IMG/VR virus record: IMGVR_UViG_3300037070_001864
Location: 1 to 49,577 of that record
DNA: 49,577 nt
Source: a virus
Reading direction: 5' to 3' (one strand)
Shown here: positions 1,231 through 49,577 of the stretch, piece after piece
Layout of the letters: every line of letters begins with the position of its first letter
Position numbering within the stretch: position 1 is the first letter of the stretch
The notes under the pieces: model-generated
Seen by the model: the letters and a program-made list of their open reading frames with translations, nothing else
What the model was told of the DNA's origin: nothing
The model's database searches: none
Position numbers and translations under genes: made by a program

Positions 1231-2699
1231 TGCGCCAGCTGAAGCTCAACCCCGGGGCCCAGGAGGGCTTCGTCAAGGGGGACGAGAAGTTCAGCGCTTA
1301 CATCGGGGGCCTAGGCTCGGGCAAGACCTGGGCCGGGGTCGCGCGCGGCATCAAGTTCTCGCTCCAGCCCAAGCCTGAGGGCGTGTTCCACGCACCCCAC
1401 GGCCTCATCGCCGCCTCCTCCTACCAGGCCCTGGACGACATCATCATCGCCAAGCTCCAGGAAATCGTGGACTACACGGGGCTGGCCAACTGGGCCACCG
1501 ACTACAAGAAGTCGAAGAAGGAGCTGACGCTTCGGAACGGTGCCGTCATCCGACTGCGGTCGCTCGACAACCCCGACACCATCATCCGTGGACCCGAGTA
1601 CACGTGGGCCTTCATCGACGAGGGCCGCAACGCCACCCTGAAGGACTGGAAGCTCGTGACCGGCCGTCTGCGCCAGCCTGGCTACACGCGCGGAGCCTGG
1701 GTCGCCTCGACGCCCAACGGGTTCGACTGGATGTACCACGTGTTCCACCCCGACGGCGACCACCACGCCACGGAGTACCCGGACGCGAACTGGTACAACG
1801 CGGCCATGCGGGAGAACATCCACCTGGACGCGGACTACCTGGACATGATGGAGCAGTCCTACTCGGGACGCTTCTACGACCAGGAGGTGCTGGGTCAGTT
1901 CGTCGGCATCGTGGAGGGCGGCGTGTTCCCGGAGTGGGACCCCGAGAAGTATTGCGTCCCACTGGGTTTCAGGCCAGACCTCCCGCTCTACTCGTTCTGG
2001 GACTTCGGCATCGGCGACCCCGGCGTGTGCATCTTCGCTCAGGTGGAGTGGCGCGTCGTGCAGGCGCCCACGCCCGGCGCCAAGCCGGTCAAGATGCCCT
2101 GGCTGTACATCCTGGGCGCCATCGAGGCCCGTGACTGGCCCGCCAGCGCGTGGGCCGAGGCGTACCACGGGTACATCGCGGAGCACTTCCCGCCAGGCAC
2201 GGCTACCCGGGGAGACTACGGGGACCCCGCGGGCATGAACCGCGCCCCGGGCAGCGGCACGTCCGTCATCTCGGACCTGAACGCGGCCCGCGTGCCGGTC
2301 GCGCCCGTCCCGAAGAAGCCGCAGGACTACGCCATCCGCATCCTCACCAACATGATTGCTGGCGGCAGGGTGCTTGTGAACAAGACCGAGGCACAGCGCG
2401 TCTCCGACGCCCTTTCCTCGCACAAGTGGAAGCTGGACAAGAACAGCGTGCGCACGGGGGAGCACCCCGTCCACGACTGGACCTCTCACCTGGTTGACGC
2501 CATCCGGTACGGCGCCACGGTGCTGCTGCCGTTCAACCCGCGCGACCTGGACGCCCCCGATGACACGGAGGGGTTCGCGCCCACCACGTACGGGCACGTG
2601 TTCGAGCAGCTGATGAACAAGCCGCAGACCCGATGGCTCGGGGGCGGCGGCGCGAAGAAGCGCCCGACCTTCATCCCGACCATCACCCCAAGGAGCTGA
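1230..2699 (+). CDS. terL: Terminase large subunit
   Basis: A 489-aa packaging motor: ATPase plus nuclease that pumps and cuts DNA at the procapsid portal. The ATPase domain shows Walker A GGLGSGKT (residues 26-33), Walker B FIDE (D130, E131) and the coupling motif STPNG (160-164). The C-terminal RNase H-fold nuclease begins with WDFGIGD (D258) and has further acidic residues in GDYGDPAG and HDWTSHLVDAIRYG near the end. The start at ATG 1230 is preferred over the longer in-frame opening at 1149 because it overlaps the previous stop and leaves a normal N-terminus. The portal gene follows after 3 bp. Confidence 0.95.
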   Translation: MRQLKLNPGAQEGFVKGDEKFSAYIGGLGSGKTWAGVARGIKFSLQPKPEGVFHAPHGLIAASSYQALDDIIIAKLQEIVDYTGLANWATDYKKSKKELTLRNGAVIRLRSLDNPDTIIRGPEYTWAFIDEGRNATLKDWKLVTGRLRQPGYTRGAWVASTPNGFDWMYHVFHPDGDHHATEYPDANWYNAAMRENIHLDADYLDMMEQSYSGRFYDQEVLGQFVGIVEGGVFPEWDPEKYCVPLGFRPDLPLYSFWDFGIGDPGVCIFAQVEWRVVQAPTPGAKPVKMPWLYILGAIEARDWPASAWAEAYHGYIAEHFPPGTATRGDYGDPAGMNRAPGSGTSVISDLNAARVPVAPVPKKPQDYAIRILTNMIAGGRVLVNKTEAQRVSDALSSHKWKLDKNSVRTGEHPVHDWTSHLVDAIRYGATVLLPFNPRDLDAPDDTEGFAPTTYGHVFEQLMNKPQTRWLGGGGAKKRPTFIPTITPRS

Positions 2700-2702
2700 C
2701 GA

Positions 2703-4571
2703 GTGGCGAAGAACGACGTGTTCCGCGTGTACGCGGACGAAGAGGCCATGCTGAAGGTGTACAACCGTCGGCTCCGCATGACCGACAGCAAGTTCGACAA
2801 GTCAGCCCCGGAGCGCCGGGCGCTCATCGGACGGTACCGCAACGAGGTCGAGGAGGACCAGGTACAGGAAGATGGGCACCGCGTCACGGTGACCAGCGGC
2901 ATCGGCATCATCGACACGATGTTCAGCTCGATGGTGGCGGTGGACGTGGCGTTCATCGTAGACAACATCGGCCACGGGACCCCACTCCAAGCCCTCGCAG
3001 CTACGCGCGCGCTGAACCAGGCGTGGCGCGATACGAAGGGCGGGAAGCGGGCCAAGCGCGCCATCAAGGACTCGCTGCTGGCCGACGTGGGGTGGGTCAA
3101 GGTCTACTACGACTACGTCGAGGACGTGGAAGTACGGGACCTGCCGTCTGAGGCCATCGAGGCCCAGCTCCTGGAGCAGTACGGAGACAAGGCGAGGGAC
3201 CTGACCGAGGCTGAGGTTGCCGAGGCGGTGGACGCCGGTACGCTGGCGCTCACGGAGGACGTGGAGGTGGTCCTGCGGGACCGCGTCTGCATCGACTACG
3301 TGCCGTGGGACCTCGTGCGCTACGACCCGTCGGCCAAGCAAATCGAGGACATGCGCTGGGTGGCCCAGTACACGCTCTACCCCGAGGCTGAGGTGCGCGG
3401 GAACCCCGTGTGGCGCGACTTCGTGAAGGAGCGCTACGGTGTCCGCAAGGGCGCGAAGATGCTCGACGACCTCGCCGGTGACTGCTCCATCAGCACCGGC
3501 CTGGAGGTTGACGCAGAGCTGTCGCGCTCGTTCGGCAAGGAGGCCGAGGGCGACGACACCCGCGTCACCGTCGTGGAGATGTGGGACTTCGAGACCGGCC
3601 TGGTGACCGTGTTCCCGAAGGGTAACACCGAGCTGGTCCTGCACCAGCGGGTCAACCCCCTGATGTTCAACCTGGACCTGGAGGACCGCAACCCCTTCAA
3701 GCCCCTGGTGGTCCGCGACGACCCCGACAACTTCGAGGGCCTGGGCGACATGCGCGTCATCAAGCCCGCGCTCGACGAGCTAGACGAGTACCGCTCGAAC
3801 ACGGCCACGTACGTCAAGCGCACCATCCCCAAGTTCTTCGGTCCGGCGCGCGCCATGACCGCCGAGGGCAAGGCCGCGCTGAAGAGCCCCATCTGGGGCG
3901 AGTACGTGGGCCTGGAGGAGGGCTTCAGCCGCCAGGACGTGGGTGACGCAGCCATCCCGTCCCTGCCGCAGGAGACGTACCAGGTCGCCGAGAGCATCCA
4001 GTACGAGATGAAGGAGGCCACCGGGGCCTCGGAGCCCATGCGCGGCGTGTTCCCCAGCCGCCGGACGACGGCCACGGAGACCCAAATCGTCACCACCGCT
4101 GGCGAGCAGCGCCAGGCGGAGCGGCGCGGGTCCCTGGAGGACTGGTACCTGGACATCGCGCGCACCGCGCTCCAACTCATGCAGGTGTTCTACGACCGGG
4201 ACCGCATGCTCCGGTACACCGACGACCTGGGCAACGACTTCGTGTGGGAGTGGAACAAGGCCGACATCGCCATCGACGCGGACCTGAACATCGCCCTCAC
4301 GCCCCGCGAGAACCTGACGCGGGACCAGCGCATCCAGCGCGCCATCCAGTACATGAACCTCGCACTCCCGCTGCCGGAGACCGACCGCGTGGAGCTGCTG
4401 AAGTGGGTGGCCCGCGAGATGGGCCTGCGCGACGACCAGACCCGCGCGCTCGTCAAGAGCCCCGAGGAGGTCAAGATGGAGGCGCAGCAGGAGCAGGCCA
4501 GCCAGCTGGCAGTCTCCCCGCAGCCCTTCGGCAACAGCCCGGTCGGCCTGGACATCTCCACGTCCGGCTGA
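2703..4571 (+). CDS. Portal protein
   Basis: A 622-aa protein starting at GTG 2703, immediately downstream of TerL. Size, the acidic/helical composition, and a central segment with E-A-T-G-A-S-E-P followed by RRTTATETQ and a long helical stretch (about residues 440-500) are typical of podovirus-type head-tail connectors, which form the dodecameric ring for DNA entry and exit. The C-terminal 100 residues are helical and Gln/Glu-rich, as in portal crown/barrel regions. Position between terminase and scaffold supports the call; the tRNA array starts 41 bp after its stop. Confidence 0.9.
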   Translation: MAKNDVFRVYADEEAMLKVYNRRLRMTDSKFDKSAPERRALIGRYRNEVEEDQVQEDGHRVTVTSGIGIIDTMFSSMVAVDVAFIVDNIGHGTPLQALAATRALNQAWRDTKGGKRAKRAIKDSLLADVGWVKVYYDYVEDVEVRDLPSEAIEAQLLEQYGDKARDLTEAEVAEAVDAGTLALTEDVEVVLRDRVCIDYVPWDLVRYDPSAKQIEDMRWVAQYTLYPEAEVRGNPVWRDFVKERYGVRKGAKMLDDLAGDCSISTGLEVDAELSRSFGKEAEGDDTRVTVVEMWDFETGLVTVFPKGNTELVLHQRVNPLMFNLDLEDRNPFKPLVVRDDPDNFEGLGDMRVIKPALDELDEYRSNTATYVKRTIPKFFGPARAMTAEGKAALKSPIWGEYVGLEEGFSRQDVGDAAIPSLPQETYQVAESIQYEMKEATGASEPMRGVFPSRRTTATETQIVTTAGEQRQAERRGSLEDWYLDIARTALQLMQVFYDRDRMLRYTDDLGNDFVWEWNKADIAIDADLNIALTPRENLTRDQRIQRAIQYMNLALPLPETDRVELLKWVAREMGLRDDQTRALVKSPEEVKMEAQQEQASQLAVSPQPFGNSPVGLDISTSG

Positions 4572-4612
4572 CGGGAATACCCGCCCCCTCTCGGGCGTTG
4601 TACGAGAGGTAT
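4572..4612 (+). other. Portal-tRNA junction with small hairpins
   Basis: A short gap between the portal stop and the first tRNA. CGCCC (4582-4586) and GGGCG (4593-4597) can pair, and TCTC/GAGA could extend a stem. It may be an RNA-processing site at the 5' side of the tRNA array or a weak attenuator. No gene. Confidence 0.3.
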
Positions 4613-4681
4613 GCCGCTCACGACATGGTGTCGTACGGGTCTCCAAAGCCCGGAGGCTGGGTTCGATTCCTAGGGGCGGTG
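4613..4681 (+). tRNA. tRNA-Trp (CCA)
   Basis: Acceptor GCCGCTC pairs with GGGCGGT; anticodon loop CTCCAAA, T-loop TTCGATT, discriminator G. The D arm is unusually short (CGACA, 3-base loop, TGTCG). CCA end not encoded. Decodes UGG. Confidence 0.75.
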
Positions 4682-4685
4682 CTGA

Positions 4686-4758
4686 TTCAGCTAGGTCAAC
4701 GTGGCGGAGACGCGCGGTTGTTACCCGCGAGAGCCTGGTTCGACTCCAGGAGCTGGAG
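4686..4758 (+). tRNA. tRNA-Asn (GTT)
   Basis: Acceptor TTCAGCT/AGCTGGA, anticodon stem CGCGG/CCGCG with loop TTGTTAC, T stem CCTGG/CCAGG, discriminator G as expected for Asn. CCA not encoded. Confidence 0.85.
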
Positions 4759-4762
4759 CTGT

Positions 4763-4837
4763 GGTCCGTTCGACTACCGGAAGGTCACCAGTCCCTCAAA
4801 CTGGCAGGCAGGGGTTCGAATCCCCTACGGACTACCA
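4763..4837 (+). tRNA. tRNA-Glu (CTC)
   Basis: Acceptor GGTCCGT/ACGGACT, T arm AGGGG-TTCGAAT-CCCCT, discriminator A and encoded CCA. The anticodon loop is CCCTCAA, so position 33 is C instead of the nearly universal U. Reads GAG. The overall sequence is otherwise Glu-like. Confidence 0.8.
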
Positions 4838-4910
4838 CGGGAAGTAGCGCAGTGGTCAGCGTACTCGGCTCGGACCCGAGTGGCCGCAGGTTCGAATCCT
4901 GCCTTCCCGA
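4838..4910 (+). tRNA. tRNA-Pro (CGG)
   Basis: Acceptor CGGGAAG/CTTCCCG, D arm GCGC..GCGT, anticodon stem CTCGG/CCGAG with loop CTCGGAC, discriminator A. It starts on the base directly after the CCA of tRNA-Glu. Reads CCG. CCA not encoded. Confidence 0.9.
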
Positions 4911-4912
4911 CT

Positions 4913-4987
4913 GTGGCGCTGGTGTAGAGCTAGCACAGCCCGGCTGTGACCCGGGAGGACGGGGTTGGAATCCCCGGCGTCACCCCA
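4913..4987 (+). tRNA. tRNA-His (GTG)
   Basis: Acceptor GTGGCGC/GCGTCAC, anticodon loop CTGTGAC, discriminator C73 typical of His, encoded CCA. The base at -1 is T, not the G expected opposite C73, and the T loop reads TTGGAAT, so the conserved C56 is G. Reads CAC/CAU. Confidence 0.8.
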
Positions 4988-5004
4988 AGTGAAAGGAGTG
5001 GACC

Positions 5005-5022
5005 ATGAGTAGCACCCTATAG
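5005..5022 (+). other. Five-codon mini-ORF inside the tRNA array
   Basis: GAAAGGAG at 4991-4998 precedes ATG AGT AGC ACC CTA TAG (5005-5022). It has a good ribosome binding site but encodes only five residues; a second GAAAGGAG follows 50 bp downstream before the real gene. It could be a leader or a remnant of a deleted gene. Confidence 0.35.
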
Positions 5023-5053
5023 GGGCCCCTAACGGGCTCCGAAAGGAGCACTC

Positions 5054-5230
5054 ATGGCTACCAAGGACGGTGGCGGCGCGAACCAGCGCCGCAAGTCCCA
5101 GGAGGCCGCCGCCGCGCTTCGCGCGCGGGGCATCCTCCACGGCATGCGTGAGACGACGACCAACGCCCCGCCCGTCCCGAACCCCAAGGACGTAGGCTCG
5201 GCAGCGTACCGTCGCCTCCGCAAGCAGTAA
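5054..5230 (+). CDS. Small basic protein within the tRNA array
   Basis: A 58-aa protein starting at ATG 5054, 5 bases after GAAAGGAG (5041-5048). It is rich in Arg, Lys, Ala and Gly, with two basic clusters (NQRRK near the N-terminus and AYRRLRKQ at the end) and a Pro-rich centre (NAPPVPNPKD). It is the only protein gene among the 23 tRNAs. The composition fits a nucleic-acid-binding or small virion protein. No family recognised. Confidence 0.65.
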   Translation: MATKDGGGANQRRKSQEAAAALRARGILHGMRETTTNAPPVPNPKDVGSAAYRRLRKQ

Positions 5231-5238
5231 CATGGTTT

Positions 5239-5316
5239 GTGTCGCTGGTGTTCAACGGACTAGCACACCTGGCTTCCACCCAGGCGGTAGGGGTTCGAAT
5301 CCCCTGCGACACTCCA
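5239..5316 (+). tRNA. tRNA-Gly (TCC)
   Basis: Acceptor GTGTCGC/GCGACAC, anticodon stem CCTGG/CCAGG with loop CTTCCAC, T arm AGGGG-TTCGAAT-CCCCT, discriminator T, encoded CCA. Begins 8 bp after the stop of the small gene. Reads GGA/GGG. Confidence 0.9.
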
Positions 5317-5317
5317 A

Positions 5318-5392
5318 GCACGGCTAGCTCAGTCTGGTCAGAGCATCTGTCTTACAAACAGAGGGCCCGCGGTTCGAATCCGTGGCCGTGCA
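5318..5392 (+). tRNA. tRNA-Val (TAC)
   Basis: Canonical cloverleaf: acceptor GCACGGC/GCCGTGC, D arm GCTC..GAGC, anticodon stem TCTGT/ACAGA with loop CTTACAA, T-loop TTCGAAT, discriminator A. CCA not encoded. Confidence 0.92.
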
Positions 5393-5393
5393 C

Positions 5394-5468
5394 GGGGTAC
5401 AGACGACGTACTGGAGATGTCAGCTGCCTTGCAAGCAGCAGAGGAGGGTTCGATTCCCTCGTACTCCA
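5394..5468 (+). tRNA. tRNA-Ala (TGC)
   Basis: Acceptor GGGGTAC/GTACTCC with a G-T pair at 3:70, the usual Ala identity position. Anticodon stem GCTGC/GCAGC with loop CTTGCAA, T arm GAGGG-TTCGATT-CCCTC, discriminator A. Only one base separates acceptor and D stem. CCA not encoded. Confidence 0.88.
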
Positions 5469-5472
5469 CTCT

Positions 5473-5543
5473 CTCGTGTGACGCTGCTGGGTGGCGGGTG
5501 GCTTGTCGAGCCAACGAGACGGGTTCGATTCCCGTACACGGGA
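5473..5543 (+). tRNA. tRNA-Asp (GTC)
   Basis: Acceptor CTCGTGT/ACACGGG, anticodon stem TGGC/GCCA (fifth pair mismatched) with loop TTGTCGA, T arm ACGGG-TTCGATT-CCCGT, discriminator A. D stem only CGC/GCG. Reads GAC/GAU. Weaker fold than its neighbours. Confidence 0.72.
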
Positions 5544-5547
5544 CTTC

Positions 5548-5618
5548 CCCCGGCGGTGCCGGATTGCATGGACGTGGCTACGAACCACGGTGGCGGGGTT
5601 CGACTCCTCGGCTGGGGA
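5548..5618 (+). tRNA. tRNA-Arg (ACG)
   Basis: Acceptor CCCCGGC/GCTGGGG, anticodon stem CGTGG/CCACG with loop CTACGAA, T arm CGGGG-TTCGACT-CCTCG, discriminator A. A34 would need the host adenosine deaminase (TadA) to make inosine and read CGC. D stem is weak. CCA not encoded. Confidence 0.8.
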
Positions 5619-5622
5619 CTGT

Positions 5623-5708
5623 GGAAGGTGAAAGCTGAATGGTCGGCTACCGGCTTCGAAACCCGGGGGTGGGCAACCACAGGCGTTCGATTCGTCCTCC
5701 TTCCGCCA
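5623..5708 (+). tRNA. tRNA-Ser (CGA)
   Basis: Class II tRNA: acceptor GGAAGG/CCTTCC, long variable arm GGTGG..CCAC, anticodon loop TTCGAAA in a CCGG/CCGG stem with a C-C mismatch at 31:39, T-loop TTCGATT, discriminator G, encoded CCA. Reads UCG. Confidence 0.82.
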
Positions 5709-5709
5709 C

Positions 5710-5781
5710 GCGGTGCAGGTGTCAACGGCTGCACGTGACCTTGCCAAGGTCAAGGAGCGGGTTCAAGCCCCGCGCATCGCT
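5710..5781 (+). tRNA. tRNA-Gly (GCC)
   Basis: Acceptor GCGGTGC/GCATCGC, D stem GTG/CAC, anticodon stem TGACC/GGTCA with loop TTGCCAA, T arm GCGGG-TTCAAGC-CCCGC, discriminator T. Reads GGC/GGU, the commonest Gly codons here. Starts 2 bp after the previous tRNA. Confidence 0.9.
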
Positions 5782-5785
5782 CTTC

Positions 5786-5857
5786 GGGTCTCAGATGTTT
5801 GAGGCGGCATAGCTGGCTCTTACCCAGCCTGACAGGGTTCGATTCCCTGGAGACCCA
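5786..5857 (+). tRNA. tRNA-Lys (CTT)
   Basis: Acceptor GGGTCTC/GAGACCC, anticodon stem GCTGG/CCAGC with loop CTCTTAC, T arm CAGGG-TTCGATT-CCCTG, discriminator A. Reads AAG, nearly the only Lys codon used in this genome. Confidence 0.9.
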
Positions 5858-5868
5858 CGCAGTAACAC

Positions 5869-5940
5869 GCCCCTGTAGTGCTAACGGCAGAACACTCCCT
5901 TCGTACGGCAGAGGTCGGGGTTCGATTCCTCGCGGGGGCT
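5869..5940 (+). tRNA. tRNA-Thr (CGT)
   Basis: Acceptor GCCCCTG/CGGGGGC, anticodon stem CTCCC/GGCAG with one C-C mismatch and loop TTCGTAC, T arm CGGGG-TTCGATT-CCTCG, discriminator T. Reads ACG. The alternative reading as Arg (TCG) gives a much worse anticodon stem. Confidence 0.8.
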
Positions 5941-5944
5941 CTGA

Positions 5945-6012
5945 CCCGATGAGACTGGACACGCCCTGGCCTCCTAAGCTGGGGGACGGAGGTTCGACTC
6001 CTCCCATCGGGG
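5945..6012 (+). tRNA. tRNA-Arg (CCT), degenerate D arm
   Basis: Acceptor CCCGATG/CATCGGG, anticodon stem CTGGC/GCTGG (two wobble pairs) with loop CTCCTAA, T arm GGAGG-TTCGACT-CCTCC, discriminator G. Only 14 bases separate acceptor and anticodon stem, so no normal D arm can form. Reads AGG. May be a decaying or structurally minimal tRNA. Confidence 0.65.
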
Positions 6013-6016
6013 CGAC

Positions 6017-6085
6017 GGCTCGGCGTCACGGCCGACTCGCCCGCCTGCAAAGCGGGCCGCGCGGGTTCGACTCCCGCCCGGGCCT
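6017..6085 (+). tRNA. tRNA-Cys (GCA)
   Basis: Acceptor GGCTCGG/CCGGGCC, anticodon stem CCCGC/GCGGG with loop CTGCAAA, T arm GCGGG-TTCGACT-CCCGC, discriminator T as required for Cys. D arm short (GTC/GAC, 6-base loop). Confidence 0.82.
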
Positions 6086-6090
6086 CACAT

Positions 6091-6176
6091 GGTAGACCGG
6101 CAACTGGCGACGCGGCTCCCCTGCTAAGGGAGTGGCCCCCACGGGTCTGAAGGTTCGACTCCTTCGTCTACCGCCA
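6091..6176 (+). tRNA. tRNA-Ser (GCT)
   Basis: Class II tRNA: acceptor GGTAGAC/GTCTACC, anticodon stem CTCCC/GGGAG with loop CTGCTAA, long variable arm, T arm GAAGG-TTCGACT-CCTTC, discriminator G, encoded CCA. Reads AGC. Confidence 0.9.
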
Positions 6177-6177
6177 T

Positions 6178-6253
6178 ACCTTCCTGGTGTAATCGGCAAC
6201 ATCCCTGACTCTGAATCAGGGGAGTCCAGGTTCGAATCCTGGGGAAGGTACCA
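6178..6253 (+). tRNA. tRNA-Gln (CTG)
   Basis: Acceptor ACCTTCC/GGAAGGT, anticodon stem CCTGA/TCAGG with loop CTCTGAA, T arm CCAGG-TTCGAAT-CCTGG, discriminator A, encoded CCA. Reads CAG. Starts 2 bp after tRNA-Ser(GCT). Confidence 0.9.
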
Positions 6254-6254
6254 T

Positions 6255-6326
6255 GTCGGGGTGGCTGTTGGAAGCCCAGCCGGTCTCATAAGCCGGTCCT
6301 CGTGGGTTCGATTCCCACCCCCGCCA
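6255..6326 (+). tRNA. tRNA-Met elongator (CAT), or tRNA-Ile2
   Basis: Acceptor GTCGGGG/CCCCGCC with a mismatch at 2:71, D arm GGCT/AGCC, anticodon stem CCGGT/GCCGG with loop CTCATAA, T arm GTGGG-TTCGATT-CCCAC, discriminator A. Lacks the GGG/CCC anticodon stem and unpaired position 1 of initiators. A CAT tRNA lysidinylated to read AUA (Ile2) cannot be excluded. Confidence 0.75.
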
Positions 6327-6327
6327 C

Positions 6328-6400
6328 CGGGCTCTAGCTCATCTAGTGGAGCACCCGTCTGATAAGCGGAAGGTACGGGGTGCAAATCCTCGGAGCCCGA
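6328..6400 (+). tRNA. tRNA-Ile (GAT)
   Basis: Acceptor CGGGCTC/GAGCCCG, D arm GCTC..GAGC, anticodon loop CTGATAA, discriminator A. The T loop reads TGCAAAT instead of TTCAAAT (position 55 is G), and the first anticodon-stem pair is mismatched. Reads AUC/AUU. Confidence 0.85.
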
Positions 6401-6401
6401 C

Positions 6402-6478
6402 GGGCGACTGGCCAAACTGGTAAAGGTGCTGGTCTCAGAAACCAGAGATTCTGGGTTCGAATCCCAGGTTGCCCACCA
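6402..6478 (+). tRNA. tRNA-Leu (CAG) with a short variable loop
   Basis: Acceptor GGGCGAC/GTTGCCC, D arm with ACTGGTAAA loop of Leu type, anticodon stem CTGGT/ACCAG with loop CTCAGAA, T arm CTGGG-TTCGAAT-CCCAG, discriminator A, encoded CCA. The variable region is only AGATT, whereas bacterial Leu tRNAs normally carry a long variable arm. Reads CUG. Confidence 0.82.
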
Positions 6479-6479
6479 C

Positions 6480-6559
6480 GTGTAGGACCCCATGGCGGGG
6501 ACGCGGGCTGTAACCCCGTTGCCGAGGCACCGTAGGTTCGATTCCTACCCTGCACACCA
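6480..6559 (+). tRNA. tRNA-Tyr (GTA)
   Basis: Acceptor GTGTAGG/CCTGCAC, anticodon stem CGGG/CCCG with loop CTGTAAC, extended variable arm (TGCCGAGGCACC) typical of bacterial Tyr, T arm GTAGG-TTCGATT-CCTAC, discriminator A, encoded CCA. Confidence 0.88.
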
Positions 6560-6560
6560 C

Positions 6561-6632
6561 GTCTCTGTAGCTCAGACGGCAGAGCACTCGGTTGAAGCCC
6601 GAGGCGCCCAGGTTCGACCCCTGGCGGAGACA
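6561..6632 (+). tRNA. tRNA-Phe (GAA)
   Basis: Canonical fold: acceptor GTCTCTG/CGGAGAC, D arm GCTC..GAGC, anticodon stem CTCGG/CCGAG with loop TTGAAGC, T arm CCAGG-TTCGACC-CCTGG, discriminator A. Last tRNA of the array; the scaffold gene begins 70 bp downstream. Confidence 0.9.
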
Positions 6633-6702
6633 CTGCACCACCCCGAGGCCCTAGTACAGCGCGCGCCGCGCGCCGAGGCGATGGGTACAGGAGGTACGCA
6701 CC

Positions 6703-7596
6703 ATGGCCACACAGGCCGAGCTACGCGCCGCACTCGCAGAGGCGGTTGAGGACAGCGGATTCCCCACGGACGAGAAGGTTGCGGCCGACTCGTGGGAGGG
6801 CGAGCCGCTTGCAGTAGAAGAGGCAGCACCTGCGGCTGCCGACGAGGCAACGCTCAGTAAGGAGGAGGTCCCCGCGACTCCCGCAGCCCCCGAGGCCGAC
6901 GAGGTACAGGGAGAACTGCCGGACGAGTTCTGGGGAACGCCCCTGGACGGCATCCCGGACGAGCAGAAGCGCGCCATCTTGGAGCGCTTCGAGCAGGCTG
7001 AAAGCACCATCCACCAGCTACAGGCGAAGCTGGCTGTGAAGCCAGAAGAGCCCGAGGTAGCACCCGCACCCGAGTCAGAGGAAATCACGGACGAGGCCAT
7101 CGCCCTGGCGCTTGGCTACGACCCTGATGACCCCTACTCCAAGCCGACGGACCGCGAGTTGACTCTCGCGCGTACCCTCATCGACCTGGAGGACAAGGTG
7201 GACGGCCTCATCCGCAAGGACGAGGTGACCACCGTCGAGGCTCAGTGGAACGGCCAGCTCGACGAGCTGGAGTCCACGTACGGGAAGCTGCCGGGAGACC
7301 GTGTGCAGGTCCTGAAGTACGCCATCGACGAGGGCATCGTGTCCCCGTTCGAGCTGTACTTCCGTCTCACCGCCCCCATCAAGAAGGAGGTGGACGACGT
7401 GGTGACCGCCGCGCGCCGTGAGGCCGCGAAGCGCGCCGAGGCCGGGGGCACCAAGCCCCGAGCCACTTCGGCCGGTTCGCTCCCCATCGACGCCAGCCTG
7501 TCACTGCGCGACGCCACCAAGCTCGCCATGGCGGAGGCAGAGAAGGAGACCGGCTTCACGTTCAAGGGCATCTTCGGTCGCAAGCAGACTGACTAA
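6703..7596 (+). CDS. Capsid scaffolding protein
   Basis: A 297-aa, strongly acidic, Ala/Glu-rich protein directly before the major capsid gene. It has low-complexity acidic N-terminal sequence (residues about 25-70), a coiled-coil-like middle (about 85-115 and 150-185) and a basic, helical C-terminus ending in GRKQTD, the usual capsid-binding end of phage scaffolds. It would shape the procapsid and leave before or during DNA packaging. ATG 6703 is preceded by ACAGGAGGT (6689-6697). Confidence 0.85.
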   Translation: MATQAELRAALAEAVEDSGFPTDEKVAADSWEGEPLAVEEAAPAAADEATLSKEEVPATPAAPEADEVQGELPDEFWGTPLDGIPDEQKRAILERFEQAESTIHQLQAKLAVKPEEPEVAPAPESEEITDEAIALALGYDPDDPYSKPTDRELTLARTLIDLEDKVDGLIRKDEVTTVEAQWNGQLDELESTYGKLPGDRVQVLKYAIDEGIVSPFELYFRLTAPIKKEVDDVVTAARREAAKRAEAGGTKPRATSAGSLPIDASLSLRDATKLAMAEAEKETGFTFKGIFGRKQTD

Positions 7597-7628
7597 GCCG
7601 TAGCACGTCTACGGGAGACAACCCTGAA

Positions 7629-8687
7629 ATGAGCATCTACGCAGACCAGTTCGACGTACTGGTCACCACGACGCTCGACAAGGTTCGCCCCACCCTGAGC
7701 GACCAGATTTCCAACGAGAACATCCTCCTCGCGTGGTTGAACTCGAAGGCTCGCATCACGGTGGACGGCGGTACCGTCATCCGCAGGCCCCTGCTGTTCG
7801 CGTTCAACGACACGGTCGGTACCTACTCCGGTTACGACCTCATCGACGTGACGCCGCAGGAGGGCCTGGGCTGGGTCGAGTACGAGTGGCGCCAGCACGC
7901 CGGTTCCGTCACCATCTCTGGTGAAGAGGTGAAGAAGAACAGCGGCAGCGCTGCTCTCATCAACCTCCTCCAGGCTAAGATGGACCAGCTGAAGCTGTCC
8001 GTCGCGGACGACTTCAACGCCATGCTCTACGGTTCCGGCAACGGAAACGGAGGCAAGGACTTCAACGGCCTCATGGGCATCGTGTCGGACGGCAAGCAGT
8101 TCGGGTCCTCGGACACGGGCGCTGCACTGCCGACCGGCGCATCCGTCACGGACACGCACCTCGGCGGAATCTCCGCCGCGACGTACACGTGGTGGAAGTC
8201 CAACATCGTTGACGAGGCGTCCCCCGTGGACCTCACGTCCTTCGATGGCGTGGACAGCCTGAACAACCTGTACAACAGCATCCGTGTTGACCGCTCCAAG
8301 GTTGACATCGAGCTGACGACGCAGGCGAACTTCGAGGCATACGAGGCACTCGCCGTGCCGAACATCCGCTTCCAGTCGCTGAAGGCTGCCGACCTCGGTT
8401 TCGAGACCATCGCGCACAAGACGGCTGAGGTTGTGTTCGACCCGGACGTGCCCACGAGCGGCGCATGGAACGACGGCGACCACACCGTTTCGGGTGGCGG
8501 CGTCTGGTTCATGCTGAACTCGGACCGCCTGGAGTTCGTCCAGCACGCGGACTCGTGGATTTCCCCCACTGAGTTCGTGCGCCCGTACAACCAGGACGCC
8601 AAGACGGCGCTCGTCCTGTCGATGGGTAACCTCATCACGGACAGCCGTCGCTCGCACGGCATCGTGTACGCGACGACCGTGTCGTAA
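7629..8687 (+). CDS. Major capsid protein
   Basis: A 352-aa protein in the standard slot after the scaffold, followed by a strong hairpin terminator. Sequence character fits an HK97-fold coat protein: an N-terminal helical arm, the segment SGEEVKKNSG followed by a long spine-like helix (about residues 95-125), a Gly/Asn-rich loop (SGNGNGGKDFNGLMG), and a mainly beta C-terminal half. The T7-like order scaffold-capsid agrees. It forms the icosahedral shell. Codon use is strongly biased to C/G endings, as for a very highly expressed gene. Confidence 0.92.
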   Translation: MSIYADQFDVLVTTTLDKVRPTLSDQISNENILLAWLNSKARITVDGGTVIRRPLLFAFNDTVGTYSGYDLIDVTPQEGLGWVEYEWRQHAGSVTISGEEVKKNSGSAALINLLQAKMDQLKLSVADDFNAMLYGSGNGNGGKDFNGLMGIVSDGKQFGSSDTGAALPTGASVTDTHLGGISAATYTWWKSNIVDEASPVDLTSFDGVDSLNNLYNSIRVDRSKVDIELTTQANFEAYEALAVPNIRFQSLKAADLGFETIAHKTAEVVFDPDVPTSGAWNDGDHTVSGGGVWFMLNSDRLEFVQHADSWISPTEFVRPYNQDAKTALVLSMGNLITDSRRSHGIVYATTVS

Positions 8688-8695
8688 CCCTTGAT

Positions 8696-8719
8696 GGGAG
8701 GGGGCTTCGGCCCCCTCCC
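8696..8719 (+). terminator. Hairpin terminator after major capsid gene
   Basis: A perfect 10-bp stem GGGAGGGGGC / GCCCCCTCCC capped by a UUCG tetraloop. No U tract follows, but such GC-rich hairpins terminate or attenuate in Actinobacteria. It probably reduces downstream expression relative to capsid or protects the capsid mRNA 3' end. Confidence 0.75.
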
Positions 8720-8735
8720 ACTACAGGAGGTAGTG

Positions 8736-9194
8736 ATGGAAGAGGGAGAGGTACATCAGAACGTCATCCCCGCGGCCGAGATGCTCGACGAGCTGGTCGG
8801 AGACGCGGTGGGACGGTTCATGAAGAGCATGACCGGCAGCCCCTCGCAGGTCCAGCAGAAGCCGTTGACGCGACGTGAAGAGCGGGACCGGCAGCGCCAG
8901 GAGAACGGGCGCATCGCGCGCGAAGCCGCACAGCGGCGGGTGGCGCGGAAGATGGCAGTCGGCATCGAAGAGAGGGTGGCCAAGGCAGCGAAGCGCCTCA
9001 ACGGCGTGAACGTGGCCGGAGCCATCGACCTAATCCGGGACGCATCTGAGTCTGACCGCGACCTGCTGCTCATCGCAGAGAGGCACGGACAGAACCGCTC
9101 GGGCGTCCTGAAGCAGTTCGGAGCCCCGCGCGCAAGCGTGGAAACCGCCTACCTGGCGGAAGCGGGCCTAGCTAGCCCCGAGCATGGCCCATAA
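8736..9194 (+). CDS. Hypothetical protein after capsid
   Basis: A 152-aa protein, basic and helical in the middle (TRREERDRQRQENGR followed by Arg/Ala-rich sequence, residues about 45-85) with an acidic N-terminus. ATG 8736 follows AGGAGG at 8725-8730; the frame is open upstream through the terminator hairpin, which is not coding. Its place between capsid and decoration-like genes suggests a head-assembly or head-completion role. No recognised family. Confidence 0.6.
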   Translation: MEEGEVHQNVIPAAEMLDELVGDAVGRFMKSMTGSPSQVQQKPLTRREERDRQRQENGRIAREAAQRRVARKMAVGIEERVAKAAKRLNGVNVAGAIDLIRDASESDRDLLLIAERHGQNRSGVLKQFGAPRASVETAYLAEAGLASPEHGP

Positions 9195-13448: not shown

Positions 13449-14188
13449 TGGACCTGGCAGACCTACGCCTCGAAGTGCGTGAGCGCGTGAATGAGCTGGT
13501 CGCCGACTTCTTCACCGACGACGAGGTGGACCGCGCCATCAACGAGGCCGTGCGTCGATTCTGCGCCGAGGAGAAGTGGCCGTTCCTCCTGACCGAGTGG
13601 GAGAGCACACTCGACGCGGACGACCAGGAGCTGACGCTCCCGTCCGATGTGTCCCTCACTCGCGTGTTCAACCTGTCCATCTCCGGCGGCACCCTGAGCA
13701 TCCCCCGGATGCTGGTGCGGGTAGACGGCAACGAAGGCTTCGCTCTCCGGCACCAGTACAGCCTGACCACCGGCACGCCGCGGTGGTACTACATCTCGCA
13801 GTCCAACCAGTCGGCCGACGAGGCACCGCCCGTGACCTACACGGCGAAGCTCATCCCTACGCCAGACTTCGACTACGAGGTGGAGGCGCAGTACATGGCC
13901 GTGCCCGTGCTGTTGACCGGGGCGAGCGACGAGCCCATGGTGCCGACCGAGTACCAGGAGGCAATCGCAGCCTGGGCCACCGGCAAGCTCTTCCTGAAGG
14001 AGCTGGGCATCAGCCAGAAGGCCAGCGAGCAGTTCTCCATCTACGCCAAGGTCCTGGAGCAGGCGCGCGCAGACCTGCGCTCGTTCAGCCTGGACGAAGT
14101 GGTGGCCTGGGGGCGTGAGCACCCCATCACCCACGGGGTGGGGTTCTACGGCGGAGCAGTCCGCCTGCCACCGACCCTCGGGGGGTAA
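13448..14188 (+). CDS. Head-tail adaptor (tail tubular protein A-like)
   Basis: A 246-aa protein. The N-terminus DLADLRLEVRERVNELVADFF..DDEVDRAINEAVRRFC is the hallmark helical segment of gp6/gp11-type adaptors that dock onto the portal ring. The central region is beta (decorated by an RWYYISQ segment), and the last third is again helical (ISQKASEQFSIYAKVLEQARADL). It would form the ring between portal and nozzle in a podovirus tail. Start ATG 13448 overlaps the previous stop. Confidence 0.8.
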   Translation: MDLADLRLEVRERVNELVADFFTDDEVDRAINEAVRRFCAEEKWPFLLTEWESTLDADDQELTLPSDVSLTRVFNLSISGGTLSIPRMLVRVDGNEGFALRHQYSLTTGTPRWYYISQSNQSADEAPPVTYTAKLIPTPDFDYEVEAQYMAVPVLLTGASDEPMVPTEYQEAIAAWATGKLFLKELGISQKASEQFSIYAKVLEQARADLRSFSLDEVVAWGREHPITHGVGFYGGAVRLPPTLGG

Positions 14189-14191
14189 CCC

Positions 14192-15052
14192 GTGACGCTC
14201 AGCTTCGTCACCCATGAGCTGGGTGGTTCGTCCTCGAACGTCACCGACGCCACGCTCTCGTTCTCCGAGATTCCTGACCCCCAGGACCTAATCGTCGTCA
14301 TCGGCGCGTTCGGGGTAAGCCGCAGCGCAAGCGCGCCCTCTGGGTACACGCTCGTGGGGTCGTCGTCATCGGCGGGCGACCTGAACAACTACTGGGAAAT
14401 GGTGTGCTGGAAGAAGGTCGCCGACGGAACCGAGTCGGCGGTGACCGTAGACCCATCAAGCTCGGGTCCCATCGGCATCCACTACCTCCTGTACCGCCCT
14501 CAGGGCACGCTGACGCTGGAGAGCGACGCGGCCCACGTCGGCGAAGGAACGTTCGACTTCCGAAGTGACTTCGACGCCTCAGGCATCGGCTCCCCCGTCG
14601 AGCTGTCGTTCACGGCCCACTCTCTGGCCAACGGTGGACTCAGCAGCGTTGACCTCGTGAACATCCTGGCGGTCATCGGCGCCGGGACCAGCACCACCAA
14701 CATCACCGACACCACTTGGGACGACGGTGCGTTCACCGAGCGGTACTCCGACGAACTGACGTTCTCGGTCGCGTCCAACGGCTTGGTAGACGCGAGCGCC
14801 AGGACCTACTGGTGGTTCGGTGACATGCTGAACATCACCGACGAGACCACGGTAGACGCCACTCCCGCACTGTCCGGCGACCCGACCGACACCCTGGAGG
14901 TGTTCGGCCGCACCTTCACGATTCCGTACACGGACGTGACGGGCGGCGTGGAGCCGGGAGACATCAACCCCCACAGGTACGCGCAGCGCCGCTTCGCAGG
15001 CACCTCGCTGCCATTCGACCTCGTGAACATCCGACTGGGAGGAGAGGCATGA
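14192..15052 (+). CDS. Hypothetical beta-rich virion protein
   Basis: A 286-aa Ser/Thr/Asp-rich, beta-type protein starting at GTG 14192. The end (RYAQRRFAGTSLPFDLVNIRLGGEA) overlaps the fibre start. The pattern of aromatic and Gly turns (YWEMVCWKK, YWWFGDML) resembles sandwich domains of phage tail or adhesin proteins. No specific family recognised. Its position between adaptor and fibre suggests a tail component. Confidence 0.55.
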   Translation: MTLSFVTHELGGSSSNVTDATLSFSEIPDPQDLIVVIGAFGVSRSASAPSGYTLVGSSSSAGDLNNYWEMVCWKKVADGTESAVTVDPSSSGPIGIHYLLYRPQGTLTLESDAAHVGEGTFDFRSDFDASGIGSPVELSFTAHSLANGGLSSVDLVNILAVIGAGTSTTNITDTTWDDGAFTERYSDELTFSVASNGLVDASARTYWWFGDMLNITDETTVDATPALSGDPTDTLEVFGRTFTIPYTDVTGGVEPGDINPHRYAQRRFAGTSLPFDLVNIRLGGEA

Positions 15053-17487
15053 CGCGCAAGGCCCGCTTCAACGCGCTACCGCGCGACCTCACCCAGATGA
15101 ACGAGACGGAGCTGCGAGCGCTCCTGGCGCGCGTCGTCAAGGCTCAGCAGGAGAACAACGACGTTCTGCTCGGGAACCAGTCCGGCGTGGTCGCCGAGTT
15201 CAACCGCCTCGCGGCGGACGTGGCGTACATCATGGAGTACCTGGGCGTGGAAACCGACGCGGCCGGGGAGCCCGAGTACGTGGACGGGCCGAGCATCATC
15301 CTGGATGACATCGACGACCTCGACCCGGATGTGGCCGAGGAGCTGGCTAGCGGGTCTCTGGGCAGGCGGCCGGTAGCGGTCTACCCATCGGAGGCGCCGC
15401 CCCTGATGGCGTTCATCCCGCCGCTCACCGACGCCAGCGAAATCGTCATCACCGACGTAGGCGGGGACTTCACCGCGACGACGGTCGAGGGTGCCCTAGA
15501 CGAACTTCAGTCGGACCACGAGACCGACGCGCAGAACCTGTCTGACCACATCTCGGACACGGGAGACGCACACGACGCTAGCGCCATCAGCATCCTGGAT
15601 TCCGCGAACGACTTCACGGCCACCGATGTTGAGGGGGCCCTGGCTGAGCTACAGGCAGACGCAGAGGCCGACGGCACGGCGCTGTCAGACCACCTCGCGG
15701 ACACGGACGATGCCCATGACGCCTCAGCCATCTCCATCCTGGACGCTGGGGCCGACTTCACGGCTACGACCGTCGAGGGGGCGTTGGACGAGCTTCAGGC
15801 GGACAACGAAGCGCACGTCGCAGCGGCAGACCCTCACACGGGCTATCGGCTGGAGTCGGCTGACCACACGCACCAGACCACGGGAGCGCAGGCCGGTCAG
15901 CTGACCGTCGCCGCGCTGTCGGACTCGCCCGGCGGCGAGCTGGGCGGGACGTGGGCGTCGCCGACGGTGGACGCGACGCACTCAGGCTCGACGCACTCGG
16001 CGGCGACCGACACGCACATCGCCGACAGCAGCGCGGCTCACGCGGCGTCGGCCGTGAGCGCCGACAGCACCACGCTCGTCGGAACAGGCACCGACGTGCA
16101 GGCCGTGCTGGAGGAGCTGGACGACGGCATCGCCAACCACCTAGCAGACACCGACGATGCCCACGACGCTAGCGCCATCTCCATCGCCGACGCCGGAAGT
16201 GACTTCACGGCGACGACGGTGGAAGGCGCGCTAGACGAGCTTCAGGCCGACAACGAAGCGCACGCGGCGGCGGCCGACCCGCACGCGGGCTACGTACTGG
16301 AGTCTCTGGCTGCCGCGAAGGGAGACATCTACGGCGCGTCGGCCGACAACACGCCAGCAATCACTACCGTCGGCACAGACGGACAGATTCTGTACGCCGA
16401 CTCGGGTCAGACTTCGGGCCTAGCCTGGGACGACCCGCCCGCAGCCAGCGAAGGCGGCGGAGGCGGCGACGGTGTGCCCTACTTCCCGCCGCCACCGGAC
16501 CCGGGGTTCGGCATGTGGGTACCGCCCAACCAGGAGCAGAGTGCCGTCGTTGACATCCAGGAGTTCACCACGCCTGGGGCCACCACGTGGACGAAGCCAC
16601 CCGGCGCCGTCTGGGTTCATGTCCTCGCCATCGGCGGGGGCGGAGGCGGCGGTTCCGGCCGCAAGGGAGCCGACGGCTCGGACCGCTTCGGTGGGGGCGG
16701 CGGGGCTGGCGGCCAGGTGGCCATCACATGGATTGACGCCGCGGACCTAGGAGCTACCGCAGACGTACAGGTAGGCGCGGGCGGCACGGGTGGGTCCGCC
16801 GCAGGCGCGAACGACACGAACGGAAACGCCGGTGACCCCGGCGGCGAGTCCTACCTAGAGGACGACACGGTTTGCTGGGCTGGTGGCGGCGAGGGTGGTA
16901 ACGCCGGAACCGCAGCCGCTGGTGCTGGAGGCGCCGACGGCGACATCACGGCAGCAACCGGAACGATTGGCGTTCCGGGTGGCGGGGGCGGGTCCTCAGC
17001 CACCGGCGGGAGCGCGACGGACGGAGACAGCGGCCCGACCCCCGGCGGCGGCGCCGGTGGCGGCGGAGGCGGAGGCATCTCCAGCGCCGACAACGACCGC
17101 GAAGGCGGTAACGGCGGGTCGGTTCTGGGCCAGGTCGGCGGTTCGTTCGGCGCTGATGGTGCCGGTGGGTCGGCCACGGCAGGTACAGCGGGCGACAGCT
17201 CGACCGTGTTCCCCGCAGCGGGCGCTGGGGGCGGCGGTGGTGGTGCTGCCAGCACGAACACCTTCAACGCAGGCGCGGGCGGAGCAGGCGGTTCGTACGG
17301 CGGTGGCGGTGGTGGAGGAGGTGCTGTCCGAAACGGAGCCGGGCTCGCTAAGGCCGGGGGCAACGGAGGGGGCGGTGTCGTTGTCGTCACCACGTTCCTG
17401 TCCGGGCCGCAGGGAGAGCCGGGTCCGCCCGGAGCCGACGGCGTAACGCCTACGGCCGTGGAGTACATGATGTGGGGGAGTGACTGA
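15049..17487 (+). CDS. Tail fibre/adhesin with repeats and Gly-rich tip
   Basis: An 812-aa protein. Residues 1-135 form a helical attachment domain. Then come repeats of DFTATTVEGALDELQ type at about residues 141, 188, 236 and 385, with a variant near 345, each joined by SDH..DTDDAHDASAISI linkers, predicting a trimeric stalk. From about 505 (FTTPGATTWTKPPGAVWV) to 780 it is extremely Gly-rich, like polyglycine-II adhesin tips, and ends with a collagen-like GPQGEPGPPGADG stretch. It should bind the host surface. ATG 15049 overlaps the previous stop by 4 bp. Confidence 0.8.
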   Translation: MTRKARFNALPRDLTQMNETELRALLARVVKAQQENNDVLLGNQSGVVAEFNRLAADVAYIMEYLGVETDAAGEPEYVDGPSIILDDIDDLDPDVAEELASGSLGRRPVAVYPSEAPPLMAFIPPLTDASEIVITDVGGDFTATTVEGALDELQSDHETDAQNLSDHISDTGDAHDASAISILDSANDFTATDVEGALAELQADAEADGTALSDHLADTDDAHDASAISILDAGADFTATTVEGALDELQADNEAHVAAADPHTGYRLESADHTHQTTGAQAGQLTVAALSDSPGGELGGTWASPTVDATHSGSTHSAATDTHIADSSAAHAASAVSADSTTLVGTGTDVQAVLEELDDGIANHLADTDDAHDASAISIADAGSDFTATTVEGALDELQADNEAHAAAADPHAGYVLESLAAAKGDIYGASADNTPAITTVGTDGQILYADSGQTSGLAWDDPPAASEGGGGGDGVPYFPPPPDPGFGMWVPPNQEQSAVVDIQEFTTPGATTWTKPPGAVWVHVLAIGGGGGGGSGRKGADGSDRFGGGGGAGGQVAITWIDAADLGATADVQVGAGGTGGSAAGANDTNGNAGDPGGESYLEDDTVCWAGGGEGGNAGTAAAGAGGADGDITAATGTIGVPGGGGGSSATGGSATDGDSGPTPGGGAGGGGGGGISSADNDREGGNGGSVLGQVGGSFGADGAGGSATAGTAGDSSTVFPAAGAGGGGGGAASTNTFNAGAGGAGGSYGGGGGGGGAVRNGAGLAKAGGNGGGGVVVVTTFLSGPQGEPGPPGADGVTPTAVEYMMWGSD

Positions 17488-35440: not shown

Positions 35441-35466
35441 CACAATAGTAGGTTATGTCAGGGTCT
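35441..35466 (-). promoter_or_regulatory. Leftward promoter motif P2
   Basis: On the minus strand it reads AGACCCTGACATAACC then TACTATTGTG, matching P1, P3 and P4. The -10-like TACTAT (35450-35445) predicts a start near 35438, 35 bases before the helicase-operon gene. It overlaps the last codon of the gene ending at 35465. No -35 consensus. Confidence 0.65.
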
Positions 35467-38676: not shown

Positions 38677-38702
38677 CACAATAGTGGGTTATGTCAGGGT
38701 CT
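38677..38702 (-). promoter_or_regulatory. Leftward promoter motif P3
   Basis: The minus strand reads AGACCCTGACATAACC then CACTATTGTG, one base different from P2. The predicted start near 38674 leaves only about 11 bases, which include the AGGAGG site, before ATG 38663. Drives the nuclease-primase-exonuclease genes leftward. Confidence 0.65.
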
Positions 38703-38829: not shown

Positions 38830-38853
38830 CCTGACAGAACCTACTATTGTGTG
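38827..38853 (+). promoter_or_regulatory. Polymerase promoter motif P4
   Basis: GCCTGACAGAACC then TACTATTGTG, as in P1. With TACTAT at 38842-38847 the start would be about 38854, six bases before ATG 38860, so the polymerase mRNA would be nearly leaderless, common in Actinobacteria. If GTG 38851 is the start, the real transcription start must be further upstream. Confidence 0.65.
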
Positions 38854-49483: not shown

Positions 49484-49558
49484 GCGAACGACCTAAGCCC
49501 CATGGCCTAGGCGGGACGGACCACCACCCCATGCTTTGGGCCTAGGTCCGATGGGTCT
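49484..49558. repeat. Right copy of 75-bp terminal direct repeat
   Basis: Identical to 9-83. After it come TTTTCCCC and the adapter-like end, while the left copy is followed by ACACACC. See the left copy for internal structure. Confidence 0.9.
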
Positions 49559-49566
49559 TTTTCCCC

Positions 49567-49577
49567 AGATCGGAAGA
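49567..49577. other. Illumina adapter remnant
   Basis: The final 11 bases AGATCGGAAGA equal the start of the common Illumina TruSeq adapter sequence. This is untrimmed library adapter, not phage DNA; it shows that many fragments ended close to here or that the contig end was not trimmed. Confidence 0.9.

Follow-up and report, generated by a model that had tools for sequence, protein, structure and literature searches.

Why phages carry transfer RNA (tRNA) genes is an old open question, and clusters of such genes are well known. In the survey of Morgado and Vicente (2019, PMC6409571), clusters, defined by at least 15 tRNAs and at least two tRNAs per kb, came from genomes of 72 to 617 kb, with densities of about 2 to 10 per kb, and 8 of the 228 had all 20 isotypes. 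All 20 amino acids are also covered in the jumbo phage XacN1 (PMC5852040). In T5 and SP15, a tRNA-rich region that counters retron-Eco7, present or absent in close relatives, has been proposed to supply tRNAs cut by the defense (PMC11555353). Here we describe a tRNA array in the IMG/VR virus record IMGVR_UViG_3300037070_001864, analyzed over its whole length of 49,577 bp (the window). The array consists of 23 tRNAs that together represent all 20 amino acids, packed into 2021 bp (11.4 per kb) between the portal gene and a putative scaffold gene.

Like the surveyed clusters, this is a dense tailed-phage array in which isotype order is kept among relatives and with which HNH endonucleases can associate, but it is denser, complete, placed among structural genes and found in a smaller genome (49.6 kb), outside the empirical 72-to-617-kb range. 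XacN1, in contrast, has 384,670 bp, with its tRNAs in 66-kb terminal repeats and seven open reading frames (ORFs) for tRNA processing or translation, none of which was found in the window. The T5/SP15 region resembles the array in being optional, but it spans about 8 kb, has a strong tRNA-Tyr promoter of its own and belongs to larger phages; the likeness in sequence found here is general tRNA similarity. No smaller-genome precedent for a full tRNA set was found in the searched literature, which misses most subscription journals, and the full set in a ~50-kb genome is new with respect to the survey of larger phages. Carrying tRNAs for every amino acid is thus possible without a large genome; in this minimal case the set costs 2 kb (4%) of 50 kb.

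The preliminary description of this DNA, made from the letters alone, had considered the genome small for a full set, which holds. The window is the complete IMG/VR record and carries an exact 75-bp repeat at both ends (9-83 and 49484-49558), internally complementary. The records of two relatives, 50,155 and 50,209 bp long, have ends that overlap by 99 and 157 bp, which indicates a usual genome size of ~50 kb in this group. To the right of the end repeat, positions 49559-49577 read as an Illumina adapter, AGATCGGAAGA.

The tRNA units are given below, with isotypes assigned by anticodon. All were found by ARAGORN at its default threshold except Ser-CGA and Arg-CCT; L013, L014, L017 and L018 are contigs of relatives introduced afterward.

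4613-4682, + strand, tRNA-Trp (anticodon CCA); RF01852, 27.9 bits; homologous slot in L013, L014, L017 and L018
4686-4759, + strand, tRNA-Asn (GTT); Rfam match; 0.91 identical in L013
4763-4837, + strand, tRNA-Glu (CTC); CCA encoded
4838-4911, + strand, tRNA-Pro (CGG); 71.2 bits
4913-4987, + strand, tRNA-His (GTG); Rfam match; CCA encoded, discriminator C73, T-loop TTGGAAT
5239-5316, + strand, tRNA-Gly (TCC); CCA encoded
5318-5393, + strand, tRNA-Val (TAC); 67.8 bits
5394-5469, + strand, tRNA-Ala (TGC); G3.U70 in all four aligned arrays
5473-5544, + strand, tRNA-Asp (GTC); Rfam match
5547-5619, + strand, tRNA-Arg (ACG); homologous slots ACG in L013 and L014, TCG in L017
5623-5708, + strand, tRNA-Ser (CGA); relaxed ARAGORN only; RF01852, 34.4 bits; 0.94-0.95 identical in L013 and L014
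5710-5782, + strand, tRNA-Gly (GCC); 0.95 identical in L013
5786-5858, + strand, tRNA-Lys (CTT); RF00005, 25.7 bits, E 0.016; 0.93 identical in L013
5869-5941, + strand, tRNA-Thr (CGT); 0.97 identical in L013
5942-6013, + strand, tRNA-Arg (CCT); relaxed ARAGORN; 28.9 bits; L013 counterpart found at default
6017-6086, + strand, tRNA-Cys (GCA); Rfam match
6091-6176, + strand, tRNA-Ser (GCT); Rfam match; long variable arm, CCA encoded
6178-6253, + strand, tRNA-Gln (CTG); CCA encoded
6255-6328, + strand, tRNA-Met (CAT); anticodon stem not of the initiator type
6328-6401, + strand, tRNA-Ile (GAT); T-loop TGCAAAT
6402-6478, + strand, tRNA-Leu (CAG); short variable region, CCA encoded
6480-6559, + strand, tRNA-Tyr (GTA); CCA encoded
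6561-6633, + strand, tRNA-Phe (GAA)

At its default threshold ARAGORN predicted 21 tRNAs, every one on the + strand within 4613-6633, and none in the remainder of the window. A relaxed threshold added the two other units (Arg-CCT at about 5942-6013), giving 23, with Gly, Arg and Ser represented twice each. Count, isotypes and strand agree exactly with what had been read by eye; in the ARAGORN check that had been proposed, two units are missed at default, but the set still spans 20 amino acids. The -ps80 setting gave 103 predictions, was too permissive and was excluded from the counts. With cmscan, 22 of the 23 units matched the Rfam tRNA or tRNA-Sec models (E 5e-15 to 0.016). The gathering score of RF00005 (29) was reached by 16, while Arg-CCT and Cys (28.9 bits) and Lys (25.7) fell slightly below it, Trp and both Ser units matched only RF01852 (tRNA-Sec), under its cutoff, and Arg-ACG, with no Rfam match listed, is supported by default ARAGORN and by its homologues. 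In 100 first-order Markov randomizations of the array, default ARAGORN predicted none. Each amino acid thus has a cloverleaf with a matching anticodon, although the Leu body is atypical in its short variable arm. The tRNA cassette is genuine. A chimeric assembly could be ruled out because contigs from other samples show the array in the same context.

The comparison with related phages that had been suggested revealed a homologous array at the same site in three uncultured relatives. A portal search of IMG/VR gave 28 loci, and a broader one 41. L013, L014 and L017 (portals 68, 68 and 63% identical) have 23, 23 and 24 tRNAs directly after the portal gene, and contig L018 stops after the first three. 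In L013 and L014, ARAGORN called the first tRNA Val-AAC and missed Val-TAC, but on inspection their sequences contain Trp-CCA, which has G73, and Val-TAC, whose T-loop is odd; both arrays therefore cover 20 amino acids too. The order of tRNAs is identical in the window, L013 and L014. In L017 the Ser slots have moved, Arg-TCG replaces ACG and there is an additional Lys-TTT, together with two HNH endonuclease ORFs between the tRNAs (13865-14176 and 14652-14918; PHROG E 1e-26 and 2e-25); the window, L013 and L014 showed no endonuclease ORF within their arrays.

Other members of the group have the site empty, with a portal-scaffold gap of just 62 to 83 bp (L010, L012, L016, L026 and L031), or a gap of 300 to 570 bp with one or two tRNAs, or none. 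To explain array presence on the portal tree, the array must have been gained or lost three times or more, and for two of these events the branches that require them are well supported. The lone tRNAs of array-less relatives were considered as relics of an array, but this is weakly supported; L019 Phe is 0.81-0.84 identical to two array Phe tRNAs, and most others are at background identity.

Comparison of the arrays points to selection on the complete set, as had been implied in the preliminary description. All 20 isotypes are kept in L013, L014 and L017, and cloverleaf, isotype and nearly always anticodon are conserved while tRNA bodies change or get replaced. Between the window and L017, the tRNAs are 58 to 81% identical, many slots being at the level of unrelated tRNAs, against 74.5% for the portal gene; even so, 138 of 157 doubly changed stem pairs still pair, whereas 5000 shuffles gave 61.7 on average and never more than 84. 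With L013, 86 of 102 still pair versus 40 expected. The G3.U70 pair of tRNA-Ala is present in all four aligned arrays.

Replacement is most visible between L013 and L014 (portals 90.4% identical), where most tRNA slots are 94 to 100% identical. Three slots stand apart, each with its anticodon kept: Leu at 71%, Arg-CCT at 73% and Gln at 76%. The Leu-CAG tRNA has a short variable region, atypical for bacteria, in the window, L013 (6767-6843) and L017 (14909-14983), whereas the Leu slot of L014 holds the usual tRNA-Leu with a long variable arm. Such a switch can hardly be gradual, and we infer that genes were replaced with isotype and anticodon kept. Identity between the window and L013 is bimodal (Ser-CGA, Gly-GCC, Lys and Thr, 93 to 97%; Arg, Asp and Ile, 63 to 68%), and this mosaic along the array suggests that blocks have been exchanged. 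The HNH ORFs of L017 are a possible engine of exchange, by analogy with SegB of T6, where homing endonucleases beside tRNA genes drive recombination (PMC13096335), although SegB is of the GIY-YIG type and the amplification of tRNA-Tyr described there was not seen here. Taken together, the sequence comparisons characterize the array as a real, selected and optional cassette.

The function that we favor, with moderate confidence, is that of a conditional, phage-owned tRNA pool from which virion proteins could be made while host tRNAs run short; because it would be beneficial only under some conditions, the cassette as one module would be retained by some phages and lost or swapped by others. The array would be transcribed together with the structural genes as a single precursor and cut by host RNases; tRNAs without an encoded CCA would be completed by the host CCA-adding enzyme, and all would be charged by host synthetases. 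The resulting pool would serve virion protein synthesis during a scarcity caused most likely by host defenses that cut tRNAs. Phage tRNA-Tyr and tRNA-Lys counter retron-Eco7 and PrrC170 (PMC11555353), and tRNase evasion has been proposed for the tRNAs of mycobacteriophages (PMC10264068). Such a conditional defense would agree with a one-per-amino-acid set that is present or absent as a whole, and destruction of host tRNAs is a plausible reason for the array, favored indirectly by the unchanged codon usage described below. Substitution for depleted host tRNAs, an antidefense role, is the best-supported function, though unproven.

Several observations weigh against this explanation. Under standard wobble, the array reads 76.7% of late codons, and likewise of early codons; the remaining 23% (CUC, CCC, ACC, UCC, GCC and GUC) are left to the host, and coverage is still just 86.6% when U34 is allowed to pair with any base. 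The scanned proteins, which include part of the smallest ORFs, comprised no synthetase, CCA-adding enzyme, RNA ligase or polynucleotide kinase. A translation-independent phage would read all of its codons and encode synthetases, tRNA-processing or repair enzymes; with ~23% of codons left to the host and no such enzyme among the scanned proteins, this one is not translation-independent, and the preliminary description went too far in that respect. In addition, the short-arm Leu-CAG and several low Rfam scores make the charging of each unit uncertain, the cassette, lying among structural genes, might be expressed too late to help early translation, and its scattered presence on the portal tree could reflect random gain and loss as well as a benefit under some conditions.

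A lesser but real possibility is codon compensation, in which the array boosts tRNAs for codons overrepresented in the phage relative to its host, with no tRNA destruction involved. For 15 of the 18 degenerate amino acids, the late codon used most often has its cognate in the array, and codon matching has been reported for XacN1, which likewise covers 20 amino acids (PMC5852040). However, compensation needs no complete set with single-codon Met and Trp and two-codon isotypes that any host has, and abundant C-ending four-box codons remain unserved (CUC 29%, CCC 35%, ACC 45% and GCC 45%). Codon usage does not track array presence either: the array-less close relatives L010, L011 and L012 correlate with the window in relative synonymous codon usage at r 0.97-0.98 and are nearly equal in GC content, which tends to count against compensation as the main driver. 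Near relatives with an empty site and the same codon usage offer a natural contrast that could separate codon compensation from defense evasion better than large phages.

It is quite unlikely that homing endonucleases and recombination spread the array, as a selfish or neutral module of little benefit, at an intergenic site that tolerates it. The two HNH ORFs of L017, the patchy presence among relatives and the mosaic identity would agree with such spread, but compensatory stem changes, kept anticodons and isotype-preserving replacements point to selection on each tRNA, and the other three arrays show no endonuclease ORF. Less likely still is a broad host range, the set allowing translation in hosts with differing tRNA pools. 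This has been argued for XacN1 (PMC5852040), and GC content and codon usage do differ among relatives, but the array-bearing phages are alike in both. Finally, decayed pseudogenes or false predictions are extremely improbable, as the units missed at default or below the gathering score are outweighed by the default predictions confined to the array, the empty randomizations, the strong covariation and the homologous arrays. These refute the reading for the entire array, whereas individual units are less certain.

The following features border the cassette, are embedded in it or bear on its transcription:

2703-4571, + strand, portal gene, left border of the cassette; PHROG 156, E 1.2e-13
5004-5056, + strand, conserved RNA hairpin enclosing the Shine-Dalgarno sequence (SD) and ATG of the 58-amino-acid ORF; fold z -3.6
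5054-5230, + strand, basic ORF of 58 amino acids between tRNA-His and tRNA-Gly; 60-61% amino acid identity, same place in L013 and L014
6634-6702, + strand, scaffold leader, right border, CCGAGGCCCTAGTACAG...; kept at empty sites too
6703-7596, + strand, putative scaffold gene, 297 amino acids; 50-54% identical in L010 and L013
7629-8687, major capsid protein (MCP) gene, downstream of the putative scaffold gene
213-230, + strand, copy of CCTGACANAACCTACTAT
38830-38847, + strand, copy of CCTGACANAACCTACTAT
35445-35462, - strand, copy of CCTGACANAACCTACTAT
38681-38698, - strand, copy of CCTGACANAACCTACTAT

The location between portal and scaffold thus stands as first described, the scaffold being named by its position between portal and MCP; its protein gave zero family matches. 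Within the leader, 6640-6700 reads GAGGCCCTAGTACAG...GAGGCGATGGGTACAG and is kept across the group. The window MCP is 90 to 91% identical to those of the array-less L010 and of L043, which has a lone Gly tRNA after the portal, but only 63% to those of the array-bearing L013 and L017, both with a 316-amino-acid form, indicating that genes adjoining the array have been shuffled. Neither a sigma-70 promoter nor a + strand terminator was found in the search of 2600-8800. The element CCTGACANAACCTACTAT occurs in four copies versus 0.03 expected, each placed just before a gene cluster, on either strand, and is probably a phage-specific promoter of a shape other than sigma-70. Its copy at 213 precedes the structural genes and none adjoins the array, from which we infer that the tRNAs are transcribed together with the structural genes.

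The 58-amino-acid ORF had no match in PHROG or Pfam. Its hairpin has counterparts in L013 (5148-5201) and L014 (4583-4636), with fold z of -4.6 and -4.7, and two pairs show a compensatory change in L014, as many being reached in 57 of 500 shuffles. Rfam gave no match, and a search of IMG/VR for the exact core yielded no additional contig. The 5' arm holds a mini-ORF of 5 codons, preceded by an SD; its role as a sensor of tRNA supply is speculation only, its ATG and that of the ORF being in complementary arms of one hairpin. A rather unlikely elaboration would combine a portable set of isotype slots against broad tRNA cutting with control of the 58-amino-acid protein by translation state through the hairpin and 5-codon leader. 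The slots would be defined by isotype and not by sequence, bodies being swapped or diversified fast while the 20 isotypes persist.

Profile scans of the window identified large terminase, portal, major head protein (PHROG 9953) and tail genes, as well as a VanY-type peptidase, a 5'-nucleotidase, a DnaB-like helicase, a primase and a family A DNA polymerase. The scan, which covered all but some small ORFs, gave no integrase. GenBank phage isolates had no related portal at E 1e-5, and their MCP match was only 24 to 32% identical. As routes to the host, portal alignment against 84,980 genomes (for prophages) gave zero relatives, and a 23-nt piece of tRNA-Leu from L014, searched for exact identity, gave no match. 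Sinorhizobium podovirus AP-20-A (49.4 kb) was ruled out as a relative, having no tRNAs and 43% GC, and Stenotrophomonas phage QDWS359 (61.9 kb), a BLAST match at the tRNAs, has just two tRNAs in the stretch compared. In the window, a tail-fiber-like gene (15545-16304) contains a 169-nt direct repeat in three copies.

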